A DNA stretch of 37,739 nt from Phyllobacteriaceae bacterium Water-Bin73. GTDB taxonomy: Bacteria; Pseudomonadota; Alphaproteobacteria; RS24. The stretch covers positions 1 through 37,739 of the forward strand of contig FZLQ01000005.1 of assembly GCA_900197605.1 (NCBI GenBank), in the 5' to 3' direction. The notes under the pieces are model-generated. The model was not told the DNA's origin and did not search any database. It worked only from the letters and a program-made list of their open reading frames with translations. Below, piece by piece: positions 6,555 to 28,735 of this stretch. Both the position numbers and the translations under genes were made by a program. The stretch's first letter is position 1; every line of letters starts with the position of its first letter.

Positions 6555-6601
6555 AAAAAGCGTAATTAAGGCAGCAGAGCTTGCAAGAAAGGGTTGCCCT
6601 T

Positions 6602-9511
6602 ATGACAAAAGAGGCGGCAAAACAGGCGGCGAAAAAACCGGTAAAAAAAGCGGCAAAAAAAGAGGCCCAAAAAGAAGCCCAAAAAGAGGCTAAGACATCC
6701 GTGCCGCATGCCCGCCCTCATTCGAGGGTGGCTTTGCGCGACACCTTGCGCGGCTTGGCCGCCACCCATCAAGGTGATGATAAAGCCCTGCGCATGGCCG
6801 TGCTCGAGACCTTGCGCGCGCAATTGACCCAAGACCGCGCTCAAGCGCGTGACGGTTTGGAAGCAAAGAAATTAAAAGGCGCAAAATGTGCCGAACTCAT
6901 CTCGGCGCGCATGGATGATATGCTGGCGGCGCTGGCCGATTTTGTCACTCAAGATGTGCTCTATATCGCCAATCCGACCGATGCCGAACAAGTTACCGTG
7001 GTGGCGGTTGGCGGCTATGGGCGGGGTCGCTTGGCGCCCCATTCGGATATCGATTTACTGTTTTTACTGCCCTATAAGCGCAATGCCACAAGCGAGAGTT
7101 TTGTCGAATATATTCTCTATATTCTGTGGGATTTGGGGCTGAAAGTCGGACACGCCACGCGCTCCATCAGCGATTGCGTAAGCCAAGCCCAAGCCGATAT
7201 GACAGTGCGCACAGCGATGCTGGAAAGTCGCTTTTTATGGGGCAGCGGCGCGGTTTATGACAGCTATCGCGAGGCTTTTCAGACAAAAATCATGCGCGGT
7301 TCGGCGCGCCAATTTGTGACCGCCAAGCTGGCGGAGCGCGATGAGCGGCATGAAAAAACCGGTCGCTCGCGCTATTTGGTGGAGCCGAATTTGAAAGAGG
7401 GCAAAGGCGGATTGCGCGACTTGAATACGCTGTTTTGGATTGCCCGATACAGCTATCAGGTCGAGGCGCTGGATGATTTGGTCGGGCTTGGTGTGTTGAC
7501 GGCAGATGAGTTGAAGCTGTTTCGAAAATGCGATGATTTTCTTTGGCATGTGCGCTGCCATTTGCATTTTTTGACCGATATGGCGCAGGAGCGTTTGAGC
7601 TTTGATTTGCAAAAACCCTTGGCTGAGTTTTTCTATCCGGCTGAGGAAGCCAAAGATGCGGCGGCGATGAAGCCGGTTGAGAAGTTCATGCGGCGTTATT
7701 TTCTGGTGGCCAAAAATGTCGGCGATCTGACAGCCATTTTTTGTGCCTCGCTGGAAGCGGCGCAAAAAAAGCCGCGTGCTGCGGCGCGCCTGCCGGCCTT
7801 GTTTCGGCGGCAAAAACAGGTTGATGGCTTCACCATTGGGGCGGGTCGGTTGCAAATGGAAGTCGAAGACGGCTTTGCGCGTGACCCGGTCAATCTCATT
7901 CGGGTGTTTCATCTCTCCGACAGCACCGGCCTTGATATTCACCCCGATACGCTGCGTGCCATTACCCAGAACACGTATCTCATTAATGCGGCGCTGCGCG
8001 ATGACGCGACGGCGAATAAATTATTTCTCGACTTGCTGACCTCAAAGCGCGACCCGGAACGGATTTTGCGACGGATGAATGAAGCCGGTGTTTTGGGGCG
8101 TTTCATTCCCGATTTTGGCCGCATTGTCGCGCTGATGCAGTTTAATATGTATCACCATTATACGGCTGATGAGCATTTGCTGCGCGCCCTTGGTTTGCTG
8201 CGCGAAATTGAAAGCGGCGCGGTGCGCGATGAACACCCGCTGGCCACCAGCCTGCTAAACAATGGCGCGGTCAATCGACGGGTCATTTATCTGGCGACAT
8301 TGCTGCATGATATTGCCAAAGGCCGCCCCGAAGACCATTCGGTTGCGGGCGCGCGCATTGCGCGCAAATTGGGCCCGCGTTTGGGTTTCTCAAAAGCCGA
8401 AACGGCGCTTACTGAATGGCTGGTGCAGGAACATTTGGTGATGAGTGATGTTGCCCAGCGGCGCGATTTATCTGACCCGCGCACAGTTGAGGATTTTGCC
8501 AAAACGGTGAAAAGCATGGAGCGTCTCAATCATTTATTCGTGCTGACGGAGGTGGATATTAAGGCCGTCGGGCCGGGCGTTTTTAACGGCTGGAAGGCGC
8601 AGCTTTTGCGCGAGCTTTATGGCGAGACGGCGTCTCGGTTTAATGCCGGCACCGCATTGGCAGCGCGCGGCGAAAGGCTGGACGGGGCCAAAACCGCCTT
8701 TGCTCAAATGCTGGATAAGGATTGGAGCATCCGCAAAACCAAAGCCTATATTCGCCGCCAATCCGACGCCTATTGGCTGAGCTTTCCGACCGAGGCCCAG
8801 CTTCGCCATGCCGATTTGATTACCGATATGGAAGATGGCGGGCATTTGCTGGCTCTGGAAGTGCATGATGATACGCTGCGCGATTGTTCCGAGATAACGA
8901 TTATCTGCCAAGACCATGCCGGTCTGTTTGCCCGTCTTGCCGGCGCATGCGCTTTGGCCGGTCTGACGATTTTGGATGCGCGCATTACGACAACCCATGA
9001 CGGGCTGGCCATTGATGCGCTGCATGTCGCTGACCGCGACAGAAGCGGCCCGCTGGCGCAGGATAAAGCCACGCGTTTGAAACAGACCATGCGCGATGTT
9101 TTGGCGGGCAAGGTGATTGTGCCCGACCGGTTGGGCGGCGCGCCGCGCCGCGCCCATATTGAGGCGTTTGATTTGCGCCCGCAATTGCGCATTGACAATA
9201 ATCTGGCCGATGATGCCAGCATTATTGAGGTCAGCGGTCTCGACCGGCCGGGGCTGCTTTATGCGCTATTGCGCGCGCTTTATGAGCTTAATCTCTCAGT
9301 CTCGGCGGCGCGGATTGCGACTTTTGGCGAGCGTGTCGTCGATGTGTTTCACGTCACGGATTTGGCCGGTGGGCAAATTACCGATGCGGCCCGCAAGAAA
9401 AAACTGCGCGCCGTTTTGCGCCGCGTCATCAATAATCCGGTAAAGGCGGCACAACCTAAAAAGCAGTCCAAAAAGCGGTCCAAAAAACCTCATCGACATG
9501 AGGCGGCCTGA
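6602..9511 (+). CDS. glnD: PII uridylyltransferase / uridylyl-removing enzyme
   Basis: Bifunctional nitrogen sensor that uridylylates PII proteins when glutamine is low and removes UMP when glutamine is high. The ATG at 6602 is preferred over an in-frame TTG at 6581 because an AGAAAGGG ribosome binding site lies eight bases before it; this gives 969 residues. In order: an Ala/Lys-rich tail (residues 3-31); a nucleotidyltransferase domain with GGYGRGRLAPHSDID (137-151, metal-binding Asp149 and Asp151); an HD domain with LLHDIAKG (H569, D570); and two C-terminal ACT domains that bind glutamine. It ends in a second Lys-rich stretch. The N-terminal tail is built of six 12-base units and is not part of the conserved enzyme. 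The gene overlaps the region around the murJ start. Confidence 0.96.
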   Translation: MTKEAAKQAAKKPVKKAAKKEAQKEAQKEAKTSVPHARPHSRVALRDTLRGLAATHQGDDKALRMAVLETLRAQLTQDRAQARDGLEAKKLKGAKCAELISARMDDMLAALADFVTQDVLYIANPTDAEQVTVVAVGGYGRGRLAPHSDIDLLFLLPYKRNATSESFVEYILYILWDLGLKVGHATRSISDCVSQAQADMTVRTAMLESRFLWGSGAVYDSYREAFQTKIMRGSARQFVTAKLAERDERHEKTGRSRYLVEPNLKEGKGGLRDLNTLFWIARYSYQVEALDDLVGLGVLTADELKLFRKCDDFLWHVRCHLHFLTDMAQERLSFDLQKPLAEFFYPAEEAKDAAAMKPVEKFMRRYFLVAKNVGDLTAIFCASLEAAQKKPRAAARLPALFRRQKQVDGFTIGAGRLQMEVEDGFARDPVNLIRVFHLSDSTGLDIHPDTLRAITQNTYLINAALRDDATANKLFLDLLTSKRDPERILRRMNEAGVLGRFIPDFGRIVALMQFNMYHHYTADEHLLRALGLLREIESGAVRDEHPLATSLLNNGAVNRRVIYLATLLHDIAKGRPEDHSVAGARIARKLGPRLGFSKAETALTEWLVQEHLVMSDVAQRRDLSDPRTVEDFAKTVKSMERLNHLFVLTEVDIKAVGPGVFNGWKAQLLRELYGETASRFNAGTALAARGERLDGAKTAFAQMLDKDWSIRKTKAYIRRQSDAYWLSFPTEAQLRHADLITDMEDGGHLLALEVHDDTLRDCSEITIICQDHAGLFARLAGACALAGLTILDARITTTHDGLAIDALHVADRDRSGPLAQDKATRLKQTMRDVLAGKVIVPDRLGGAPRRAHIEAFDLRPQLRIDNNLADDASIIEVSGLDRPGLLYALLRALYELNLSVSAARIATFGERVVDVFHVTDLAGGQITDAARKKKLRAVLRRVINNPVKAAQPKKQSKKRSKKPHRHEAA
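6617..6688 (+). repeat. Six in-frame 12-bp units coding the Ala/Lys tail of GlnD
   Basis: Six successive four-codon units of the form Ala/Val-Lys/Gln-Lys/Gln-x (GCA AAA CAG GCG, then GCG AAA AAA CCG, and so on to GCC CAA AAA GAG) encode residues 6-29 of GlnD. The last two units differ only at one third codon position. The product resembles the AAKKP-type tails of bacterial histone H1-like proteins. The size of each unit keeps the frame. Confidence 0.7.
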
Positions 9512-12727: not shown

Positions 12728-12766
12728 AGCGGCTGATTTAGGCGGCTGATTTAGGCGGCTGATTTA
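12728..12766 (+). repeat. Three tandem copies of a 13-bp unit
   Basis: The unit GGCGGCTGATTTA occurs at 12741-12753 and 12754-12766, with a first copy at 12728-12740 that differs only in its first base. A partial copy follows. The array starts one base after the usp stop codon, at the left edge of the inserted two-gene segment. Together with a candidate weak promoter (TTTCAA 12788-12793, 17 bases, TATGCT 12811-12816) it fills the 110-base gap before the hydroxylase. Confidence 0.85.
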
Positions 12767-12837
12767 GGGGGCTGGGGCAACAATCTCTTTCAACATAGTC
12801 AAAGGCGGTTTATGCTGCGGCCAAAGGGAGAGAGCCC

Positions 12838-13764
12838 ATGCAGATTGAAGAGCTGATTGCGGTCAAAGTGACCTTAACCGCCATTCCGGTGTTTTTTCTG
12901 GCGATTGCCATTGAACTGGTCGCGGTAAAATTTTTCGCGCAACGCGGCAGCCTGAACGCCAAAGATGATGGCGTGAGTATTTTCATGGGGCTGTTTTCCG
13001 TCATCACCAATGGCGCGGCGGCGTTTTTAACTGTCGGCATGTTATATTGGGCGCAAAATTATCAGCTGACAATATTGCCGCTCACGGTCACGACTTTGGT
13101 GGCGTGTTTTGTCCTTGATGATTTGCGTTATTATCTGCATCACCGGATTGCGCACCGATGCCGCTGGCCTTGGGCGATGCATATTATTCATCATTCCAGC
13201 CGCCGGTTTTCTATGGCGGTTGCTTTGCGTCAGGGCTGGACCAAGCATTTTACCGGCACAACATTGCTCAAAGTGCCGCTGGTGCTGGTCGGTTTTGACC
13301 CGCTTATGGTTATTTTCTGCGGCGCGCTCAATGCGGTTTATCAATTCTTTCTGCATACGGAAACCGTCGATAAAATGCCGCGCTGGTTTGAGGCGGTGTT
13401 CAATACGCCATCGCATCACCGCGTGCATCACGGCAATAATCCGCAATATCTCGACGCCAATTATGCCGGCACATTGATTATTTGGGATAAAATGTTCGGC
13501 ACATTTGCGGCGGAAGACGACGCCGATCGTCCCAATTACGGGCTGGTGAAGGATTTTGAGCATTATAATCCCTTCCGCATTTTCATTCATGAATATTGGG
13601 GCATTGTCAAAGATGTGCTGCGCCCGGGTCTTAGTCCGCTCCAGCGTTTGCTGTATATCATCGCCCCGCCGGGCTGGAGCCATGACGGCTCGCGTTTGAC
13701 CTCAACGGATATAAAACGCGAGGCCGGTCTGCTCGATGACACGCCGCGTGCACCGGCCGAATAG
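12838..13764 (+). CDS. Sterol desaturase / fatty acid hydroxylase family protein
   Basis: Membrane-bound non-heme di-iron oxygenase of the fatty acid hydroxylase superfamily. Histidine clusters expected to hold the two irons are at HHRIAH (101-106), HIIHH (115-119), H173 and HHRVHH (193-198), in the family order and spacing. Hydrophobic segments occupy roughly residues 10-32, 48-70, 78-96 and 145-170. The protein has 308 residues. A GGGAGAG ribosome binding site precedes the ATG. The substrate cannot be read from sequence; related proteins act on sterols, carotenoids, fatty acids or alkylglycerols. The gene is not part of the conserved backbone order and sits between usp and nfuA with an unrecognised membrane protein, which suggests that the two were gained together. 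Confidence 0.88.
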   Translation: MQIEELIAVKVTLTAIPVFFLAIAIELVAVKFFAQRGSLNAKDDGVSIFMGLFSVITNGAAAFLTVGMLYWAQNYQLTILPLTVTTLVACFVLDDLRYYLHHRIAHRCRWPWAMHIIHHSSRRFSMAVALRQGWTKHFTGTTLLKVPLVLVGFDPLMVIFCGALNAVYQFFLHTETVDKMPRWFEAVFNTPSHHRVHHGNNPQYLDANYAGTLIIWDKMFGTFAAEDDADRPNYGLVKDFEHYNPFRIFIHEYWGIVKDVLRPGLSPLQRLLYIIAPPGWSHDGSRLTSTDIKREAGLLDDTPRAPAE

Positions 13765-13823
13765 GCCGGCAAATTAAGGCCGAATAGGCCGGAGAATTAA
13801 GGCTGAGTAAGCCGGAGAAAACA
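13755..13823 (+). repeat. Three tandem copies of a 23-bp unit spanning a stop codon and the next ribosome binding site
   Basis: Copies lie at 13755-13777, 13778-13800 and 13801-13823; the first two are nearly identical and the third is diverged. Copy one contains the stop codon of the hydroxylase (13762-13764). Copy three supplies the GCCGGAG ribosome binding site of the following gene (ATG at 13827), and copy two carries the same GGAG. The next gene's translation signal is therefore embedded in the repeat. Confidence 0.8.
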
Positions 13824-26103: not shown

Positions 26104-26127
26104 GTTTGGGCAAATGTGATGAAGGGC

Positions 26128-26155
26128 TTGCACCCCATCGCTAAATCGCTATAGT
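26128..26155 (+). promoter_or_regulatory. Promoter of the rimP-nusA-infB operon
   Basis: TTGCAC (26128-26133), 16 bases, then TATAGT (26150-26155; five of six consensus bases). Transcription would start near 26162 and give a leader of about 150 bases before rimP, containing the hairpin at 26188-26207 and the T-tract array. Confidence 0.5.
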
Positions 26156-26187
26156 GATCGCACATTGATGCTGCTTTTGAAACAAGT

Positions 26188-26216
26188 GGGATGGCCTTCC
26201 GGCCCCCGCTTTTTTT
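26188..26216 (+). terminator. Terminator-like hairpin between trmB and rimP
   Basis: GGG, two unpaired bases, GGCC (26193-26196), loop TTCC, GGCC (26201-26204) and CCC (26205-26207) form a stem that is followed by seven Ts at 26210-26216. It could end trmB transcription. Because a promoter lies upstream of it at 26128-26155, it could also act as an attenuator in the rimP leader. Confidence 0.5.
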
Positions 26217-26278
26217 CTTGGCTTTTTTAGGAAGTTTTTTGGAAAGCTTTTTTGGGGAAGTTTTTTCGAGATGTTTTT
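26210..26278 (+). repeat. Six T-tracts at about 13-bp intervals in the rimP leader
   Basis: Runs of five to seven Ts begin at 26210, 26223, 26235, 26248, 26261 and 26274, that is, spaced 13, 12, 13, 13 and 13 bases apart and separated by purine-rich linkers (GGAAG, GGAAAGC, GGGGAAG). The regularity suggests a tandemly amplified 13-base unit. In RNA it would be an array of U-tracts just ahead of the rimP ribosome binding site. Confidence 0.75.
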
Positions 26279-26311
26279 CCAAAACCAAGCGGGCGGCGTG
26301 AGAGGACGGCT

Positions 26312-26917
26312 ATGACAGATCATGTCATTAAGGCAGACGCGTCTTTAGAAGACGCTGCGCGCGCGCCAAGTGACGCGCTTGACGGCACGGCTCATTTGCT
26401 GGCGCCCGGTCCGGCGCGCCCCTATCTCGATTTGGTGCAACCGCTGATTGAAGGGCTGGGTTTCCAGCTTTTGCGTATTCGCATGACCGGCGATGACGGC
26501 AAAATGGTGTTGCAGATTATGGCTGAAAATGACGATTTCGGCCTGACGATTGAGCAATGCGAAAGCATTAGCCATGCTGTTTCCGATATGCTGGATGTGG
26601 AAAATCCGATTGCCGGTGCTTATGCGCTGGAAGTCTCGTCGCCCGGTGTGGCGCGCCCCTTAACCCGCGCTGTTGATTTTGAACGTTGGGTCGGATATGA
26701 GGCCAAATTGGGTCTCAAGCAAGCGATTGAGGGTCAGCGGCGCTTTCGCGGTTTGGTTGAGGGCTTTGCCGATGGCGAGGCGCGCCTGCGAGTCAAGCTG
26801 GACGGCTATGATGACCCGCAGATTTTGGGTTTTGCGTTGGACAATATTGCCGAGGCGCGACTGGTGCCCGATGAAACGGAATTAAAGGCGAGCTTGCGGG
26901 CCGCTAAGGGAAAATGA
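26312..26917 (+). CDS. rimP: Ribosome maturation factor RimP
   Basis: Assists 30S ribosomal subunit assembly. The conserved core runs from LVQPLIEGLGFQLLRIRM through ISHAVSDMLDVENPI and YALEVSSPGVARPLTRAVDFERWVG to a C-terminal SH3-like domain. The ATG at 26312 has AGAGGA about five bases upstream and gives 201 residues; an upstream in-frame TTG at 26252 lies in the T-tract array and adds no conserved sequence. A roughly 30-residue non-conserved N-terminal extension (acidic and Ala-rich) precedes the core. It is the first gene of the rimP-nusA-ylxR-infB-rbfA-truB-rpsO operon. Confidence 0.94.
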   Translation: MTDHVIKADASLEDAARAPSDALDGTAHLLAPGPARPYLDLVQPLIEGLGFQLLRIRMTGDDGKMVLQIMAENDDFGLTIEQCESISHAVSDMLDVENPIAGAYALEVSSPGVARPLTRAVDFERWVGYEAKLGLKQAIEGQRRFRGLVEGFADGEARLRVKLDGYDDPQILGFALDNIAEARLVPDETELKASLRAAKGK

Positions 26918-26945: not shown

Positions 26946-26965
26946 GCCAATTTTAGGAGATGAAA

Positions 26966-28735
26966 ATGGCGAGTGGAATTAGTGCAAATAAGCTGGAATT
27001 GCTGCAAATTGCTGATGCGGTCGCGCGCGAAAAAGGCATTGAAATGGATATTGTGCTGTCGGCGATGGCCGACGCTATCCAGAAAGCGGCGAAAGCGCGC
27101 TATGGTCAAGAAAATGATATTCGTGTCGATATTGATGCGAAGACCGGCGAGACCAAATTGCTGCGCGTCGTGACCGTTGTTGAGCTGGTTGAAAATGACG
27201 ATACCGAAATTTCATTGGCGATTGCCCAGCGCGATAACCCGCAAGCCAAATTGGGCGATGAAGTCATTGATGAATTGCCGCCGGTTGAATTTGGCCGCAT
27301 TGCGACACAAGCCGCCAAGCAGGTGATTGTGCAGCGCGTGCGCGAAGCCGAGCGCGAGCGTCAATATGAAGAATTTAAAGACCGTGTTGGCGAGATTATC
27401 AGTGGCGTCGTCAAACGTGTGGAATATGGCAATGCCGTGCTCGATTTGGGCCGCAGCGAAGCCGTGGTGCGCCGCGATAATCTTATTCCGCGTGAAGTGT
27501 TTCGCCCGGGCGACCGTATTCGTGCCTATATCCAAAATGTGCGCCGCGAACAGCGTGGCCCGCAGGTGATTTTGTCACGCACCGACCCGGCCTTCATGTC
27601 GAAACTGTTTATGCAGGAAGTGCCTGAAATTTATGATGGCGTGATTGAAGTGCGCGCCGTCGCCCGCGACCCGGGCAGCCGCGCCAAAATCGGCGTTATC
27701 TCAAATGACCCGGGCATTGACCCGGTCGGCGCTTGCGTGGGTATGCGCGGCAGCCGTGTGCAGGCTGTGGTCAATGAATTGCAGGGCGAAAAAGTCGATA
27801 TTATCCCCTGGTCGTCCGACCCGGCGGCGTTCATCGTCAATGCTTTGGCACCGGCAGAAGTCACCAAAGTGGTGTTGGACGAAGATGTGCAGCGCATTGA
27901 AGTGGTCGTGCCCGATGAGCAATTGAGCTTGGCGATTGGCCGCCGCGGCCAAAATGTGCGCCTCGCCTCGCAGCTGACCGGCTGGGATATTGATATTATG
28001 ACGGAAGCGCAGGAAAGCGAGCGTCGTCAAACCGAATTTGCCGAACGCACGGCTTTGTTCATGGACGCGCTTGATGTCGATGAAATGATTGCCCAGCTTT
28101 TGGCGTCTGAGGGTTTTGCGACTGTCGAAGAAGTGGCCTATGTGCCGGTCGAAGAGATTACCTATATTGAGGGCTTTGACGAAGAAACCGCTCAGGAAAT
28201 TCAAAACCGTGCCCGCGACCATCTTGACCGCGAAAATGAGAAACTCGACGCGCAGCGCAAAGAAATGGGCGTTGGCGATGATTTGGCGGCGATGGAAGGG
28301 CTGACCCCGGCCATGTTGGTGCGTTTGGGCGAAAACGATATTAAATCACTGGAGGATTTCGCCGGTTGTGTGACCGATGATTTGACCGGTTGGTTTGAAA
28401 CGGTTGAGCGTCGTCGCGTCCGCCAAGAGGGTATTTTGGACGGCTTTGATATTAACGCTGAGGAAGCTGAGAATATGATTATGGCCGCGCGGGTTGAGGC
28501 CGGTTGGATTACCCAAGCCGAGCTTGACCAGCAGCGGGCTGATGAAGCGGCGCGCGCCGCTGAAGAAGCCGCCGCTGCGGCTGCCGAAGAAGCCGGTGAT
28601 GGCGCGCAAGACGATAAGTCGGCGGCGCAAACCGCCAGTGATGTTTTTGGCGATAAACCGACCGCCGCCAATAATGAGGCTGCATCTGAAGCTGCCGGCG
28701 ACGCCGCAGAGTCAACCCAGCCATCGGCAGAATAA
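26966..28735 (+). CDS. nusA: Transcription termination/antitermination factor NusA
   Basis: RNA polymerase-binding factor that controls pausing, termination and antitermination. In order: NusA N-terminal domain (about 1-125), S1 domain (about 130-200, with [22 protein letters not shown]), KH1/KH2 (about 225-345, with [16 protein letters not shown]), then two acidic helix-hairpin-helix repeats typical of proteobacterial NusA. It ends in an Ala/Glu/Asp-rich tail. The second of two close ATGs (26966) is preferred because GGAG (26956-26959) lies six bases before it, whereas the ATG at 26960 directly abuts that site. The protein has 589 residues. The stop codon overlaps an ATG at 28735. Confidence 0.96.

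Follow-up and report, generated by a model that had tools for sequence, protein, structure and literature searches.

NusA is autoregulated in E. coli. In B. subtilis, NusA stimulates termination within its own 5′ leader and thereby controls its own expression (reviewed in PMC12288461). The rimP-leader is reported to be the most ubiquitous attenuator and to have NusA as its likely regulator, and consists of a G-rich 5′ arm, a C-rich 3′ arm and a T-stretch located 4–130 nt from the gene (PMC2965389). Two terminators, t1 and t2, lie upstream of rimP in E. coli (PMC6511841). To place a further rimP leader among these systems, we analyzed a window of 37,739 nucleotides, the whole stretch of DNA under study (contig FZLQ01000005.1, positions 1 to 37,739, forward strand), from the alphaproteobacterium Phyllobacteriaceae bacterium Water-Bin73. 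The leader was compared with those of 28 genomes of the order and of further Alphaproteobacteria. Pfam assignments give the gene order trmB, rimP, nusA, an unassigned ORF, infB, rbfA, truB, rpsO and pnp, and the features of the leader are collected in Table 1.

Table 1. Features of the rimP leader and of the two genes that follow it, in window coordinates.
Feature	Position	Strand	Basis or remark
trmB stop codon	26103		leader follows trmB
sigma-70-type promoter CTTGCA-N17-TATAGT	26127..26155	+	boxes recur across the order's leaders
CTGCTTTT, conserved initial-transcribed element	26171..26178	+	leader sequence comparison
terminator hairpin, rimP-leader attenuator	26186..26209	+	GTGGG/CCCGC and GGCC/GGCC stems, AT bulge, TTCC loop
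terminator U-tract T7	26210..26216	+	conserved through the class
CTTGGC, post-U-tract motif	26217..26222	+	with T7 a 13-nt unit, exactly repeated in relative G011
five further T-runs (T6, T6, T6, T6, T5), species-specific tandem array	26223..26278	+	
Shine-Dalgarno-like GAGAGGA of rimP	26300..26306	+	read from sequence
rimP, at the head of the rimP-nusA-infB-rbfA-truB-rpsO-pnp cluster	26312..26917	+	PF02576, E 1.6e-23
nusA, presumed feedback regulator	26960..28735	+	PF08529, E 4.8e-38, and PF13184

A sequence-only reading of this DNA had placed a promoter at 26128–26155. We find a −35 box (CTTGCA, 26127–26132) and a −10 box (TATAGT, 26150–26155) separated by a 17-nt spacer, and transcription is predicted to start at ~26162. 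The same boxes with a 17–18 nt spacer, lying 23–31 nt from the hairpin, occur at 27 of the 28 leader loci of the order. The GC stem with seven Ts that had been described downstream is also present: GTGGG(AT)GGCC-TTCC-GGCCCCCGC folds into a 9-bp GC stem (−13.5 kcal/mol) with the T7 directly 3′ of it (26186–26216 in all), 95 nt from the rimP ATG. Neither promoter nor terminator was picked up by a generic scanner, whose rules do not admit a −35 box reading CTTGC or a stem with a bulge. At the position of the Shine-Dalgarno-like site of rimP, close relatives have AGGA.

The hairpin is widespread in the class. Taking hairpins 16 nt or longer, of −6 kcal/mol or lower and with an adjoining T5 or longer, we detected one 5′ of rimP at no fewer than 73 of 114 alphaproteobacterial loci. 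This is a conservative figure, as many Rhodobacterales have a shorter GGGC...GCCC version, and it covers a few genomes that are recorded more than once. The antisense strand and shuffled controls each gave 2/114. Additionally, the T7 is invariant in 24/24 alignment rows from Alphaproteobacteria. Promoter, hairpin and T7 are a conserved unit. The T7 is followed across Alphaproteobacteria by a motif, T7-NNTG, in which the T is invariant (24/24 rows) and the G reaches at least 90%; the E. coli counterpart 3′ of its rimP terminator reads T7ATGTCTTGG. Rhodobacterales rimP leaders (L041-L112) have an extra conserved stretch, CAACAGCGGC...CCACCGG, before the terminator, which looks like a separate structured element.

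By its structure and position, the hairpin with T7 is assigned to the rimP-leader attenuator of Naville and Gautheret (2010), and is thus already known in kind. Shared features include the operon, the GGG 5′ arm and CCC 3′ arm, the T-stretch, a distance to rimP (95 nt) inside the published range and the lack of a convincing antiterminator (PMC2965389). The c/g pair beside GGG/CCC is not kept, the window having an AT bulge and then G-C pairs; as this pair is in lower case in the published consensus, we did not treat it as defining. The window also differs in its five additional T-runs and in matching no Rfam family: scanning the whole window at the gathering threshold, and the leader at E values up to 10, returned no credible family. 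The E. coli metY-rimP-nusA-infB leader (NC_000913.3) is similar in having GGGCTTTAGGCCC, a GGGC..GCCC hairpin with T7 just 5′ of rimP, but it also holds a tRNA gene, metY, along with several promoters and another terminator upstream, and is without a T-run array. The B. subtilis NusA leader likewise has an intrinsic terminator 5′ of the NusA operon, although NusA dependence is demonstrated there (PMC12288461) and inferred in the window.

These comparisons suggest how the leader would operate. RNA polymerase starting near 26162 would reach the intrinsic terminator after ~55 nt, where some polymerases would stop while others read through into rimP-nusA-infB. By analogy with the autoregulation of B. 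subtilis and E. coli, NusA would strengthen termination, such that the amount of this operon product would be set by the product itself. The sequence-only reading had proposed that the NusA level could set readthrough on this leader; this is well founded for the hairpin and T7 but not for the T-runs that follow. Rather than being built as a ladder, the T-runs probably arose by tandem duplication of the 13-nt unit U7 + CUUGGC with subsequent divergence of the linkers, and in the readthrough leader they would be neutral or, at the most, have a modest influence on elongation. We give this whole explanation, attenuation with NusA feedback plus a probably neutral array made by tail duplication, a probability of roughly 0.7.

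The array itself is as had been described, with six runs of five or more Ts (26210–16, 26223–28, 26235–40, 26248–53, 26261–66 and 26274–78) at steps of 13, 12, 13, 13 and 13, the last run stopping 33 bases 5′ of the rimP ATG. The earlier doubt about DNA curvature was well placed. In the five extra runs the T positions are intact while the linkers between them (AGGAAG, GGAAAGC, GGGGAAG and CGAGATG) have diverged. Chance does not explain the array: TTTTTTN7TTTTTT occurs four times in the window, three of them in the array (shuffle mean 0.06), and in a pattern search of the 1.79-Mb draft genome, three T6 spaced at 13-nt steps turn up at a single place. An assembly error is unlikely, because independently assembled relatives have similar arrays. 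A stable hairpin stands only before the first run; there is none before runs 3–6 and a pairing of −0.6 kcal/mol before run 2, and the post-terminator region folds no more strongly than shuffles (z 0.67). We considered a second hairpin around the array, formed by CUUGG/CCAAG in three species and CUUGCC/GGCAAG in three others, but do not claim it since the post-terminator region is not clearly above dinucleotide shuffles in any relative (z −1.4 to 2.2).

The sequence-only reading had named a lack of T-tract periodicity in closely related genomes as a refutation, and by that standard the array fails. The closest relatives have the same hairpin and T7 with differing tails. The sister species G008 has two runs (T7CTTGG-T8), G005 has three (T7CTTGGG-T7AGGGG-T7) and G011 has four (T7CTTGGC-T7CTTGGC-T7GGGAAAAGC-T7), while most congeners (G002, G006, G007 and G009) have one T7 each. 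Genus g3 has T7ATTGG-T7, to which G013 adds a third run, and nearly all remaining relatives have a single run. Where arrays exist the steps vary from 11 to 16; therefore the 13-nt spacing has not been preserved. On a tree built from TrmB, RimP and NusA, which joins the window (six runs) with G008 (two runs) as sisters, four switches between one run and several are required, no fewer than three of these on well-supported branches.

Because the unit in G011 is an exact 13-mer repeat, TTTTTTTCTTGGC, the array is best read as the tail of the terminator duplicated in tandem, recently and in this lineage, with a copy number that varies by species. Comparable arrays with 12–13-nt units follow other hairpins in relatives, and a mutational origin is therefore sufficient. 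In G010 (C2) the array stands behind the unrelated hairpin GGCCGACAG..CTGTCGGCC and reads T7CTCTA-T7CTGCA-T7CTGCCC, and in G012 (C165) a GGGGGCG..CGCCCC hairpin precedes T8ATGCCCC-T6ATGCCCC-T7ATGCCCC. The array itself may be functionless. On its face, however, neutrality does not predict intact T-runs beside diverged linkers. Moreover, pattern searches found three T6 at 13-nt steps at 10 places in 28 genomes (overlapping rows merged by hand), and four of these are rimP leaders, a fraction far above their share of the DNA, which calls for either a local mutational hot spot or selection. Either selection or a hot spot at a long perfect T7 could account for both the enrichment at rimP and the conservation pattern. 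Our search of the open literature found no report of tandemly duplicated terminator U-tracts, which only weakly indicates that there is none.

The majority of the T-run arrays elsewhere in the family, with 12- or 15-nt steps, resemble lysine-rich coding sequence on the opposite strand and were set aside. Within the window, A6-7 runs at 11–12 nt steps (6606–6690) lie at the start of the ORF at 6581–9511, which has a TTG start, and are probably lysine-rich coding sequence. Two intergenic tandem repeats were also found. A 23-nt repeat at 13755–13816, GGCCGAATAGGCCGGAAAATTAA, is present in 2.7 copies, making this spacer ~60 nt long in the window vs ~15 in the sister G008; together with the rimP array it suggests that tandem duplications between genes are frequent in this genome. 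At 12729–12774 a 13-nt repeat, GCGGCTGATTTAG, is present in 3.5 copies where G008 and G006 have ~1 kb more DNA, which in G008 includes a LysR-like regulator ORF (L138:330-1223, −). This looks like gene loss with the repeat at the junction.

An active role for the array would be conceivable if the T-runs formed a ladder of NusG-dependent pause sites, with TTNTTT as the signal on the non-template strand. Such a ladder would hold polymerase back after the attenuator and ahead of the rimP ribosome-binding site, leaving time for ribosomes to load or for NusA and NusG to exert feedback. In B. subtilis, T-rich pausing at TTNTTT needs the NT dipeptide of NusG (PMC8060035). The T6 runs fit this motif, and the NusG of the window's genome, which was examined for an NT or HT dipeptide and reads HLVKNTPKVTGF (L117:1495-2025, −), contains NT. 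The persistence of intact runs between changing linkers and the repeated gain of arrays at rimP point the same way. However, a single run is found in most congeners that share the operon, and the spacing is not kept. Unlike the known signals, the window is without a pause hairpin before most runs: none precedes the last four, and only the terminator's T7 has a stable one. Pausing here is a candidate only, and we consider such a ladder unlikely. Less likely again is the broader proposal that the rimP-nusA attenuator of this lineage repeatedly grows a variable array of NusG/NusA-responsive pauses whose run number tunes NusA and IF2 output by species.

Readthrough might be decided by an antiterminator, a possibility compatible with attenuation by the hairpin and T7 and only a shade less probable than the pause ladder. 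Here CUGCUU near the 5′ end of the transcript would pair with AAGUGG and block the terminator's 5′ arm, with a factor or the folding rate determining the outcome. The conserved element CTGCTTTT is able to pair with AAGTGG (26184–26189), giving a weak upstream helix that would compete with the terminator. The 6-bp helix is found in most family members, and CUACUU and CACUU variants still pair. It is nonetheless weak, with two G-U pairs and single-sequence p values mostly of 0.02–0.16 among related sequences, and it is absent in genus g5 and some outgroups. Additionally, the published survey found no antiterminator for the rimP-leader terminator (PMC2965389). We regard the helix as a lead only.

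Two further readings of the T-runs fare worse. As each run is a strong U-tract just 3′ of a terminator, the array could act as fail-safe tandem terminators that back up the first, and the fourth run of G011 is indeed preceded by a weak hairpin, GCUUUUUUUGGGAAAAGC (−4.1 kcal/mol). We reject the additional terminators as improbable, since a hairpin of its own was not found for each U-tract: the window has only the marginal pairing before its second run and nothing stable at the last four, in a region folded like shuffles. Least probable are Rho or Hfq binding sites, as the U-rich RNA and an encoded Hfq are offset by the base content of 26210–26279 (16 G and only 5 C, which makes Rho unlikely, as a rut site is C-rich, G-poor RNA) and by a copy number that is not conserved.

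With the hairpin and T7 assigned to the rimP-leader, a little-studied marine alphaproteobacterial order is now placed in the most widespread known attenuator family. Promoter and terminator form a compact module in the leader, on which NusA feedback could be tested in Alphaproteobacteria, for which there is no matching Rfam family. Additionally, the array constitutes a natural experiment, in which sister species with a common promoter and hairpin have from one to six U-tracts.
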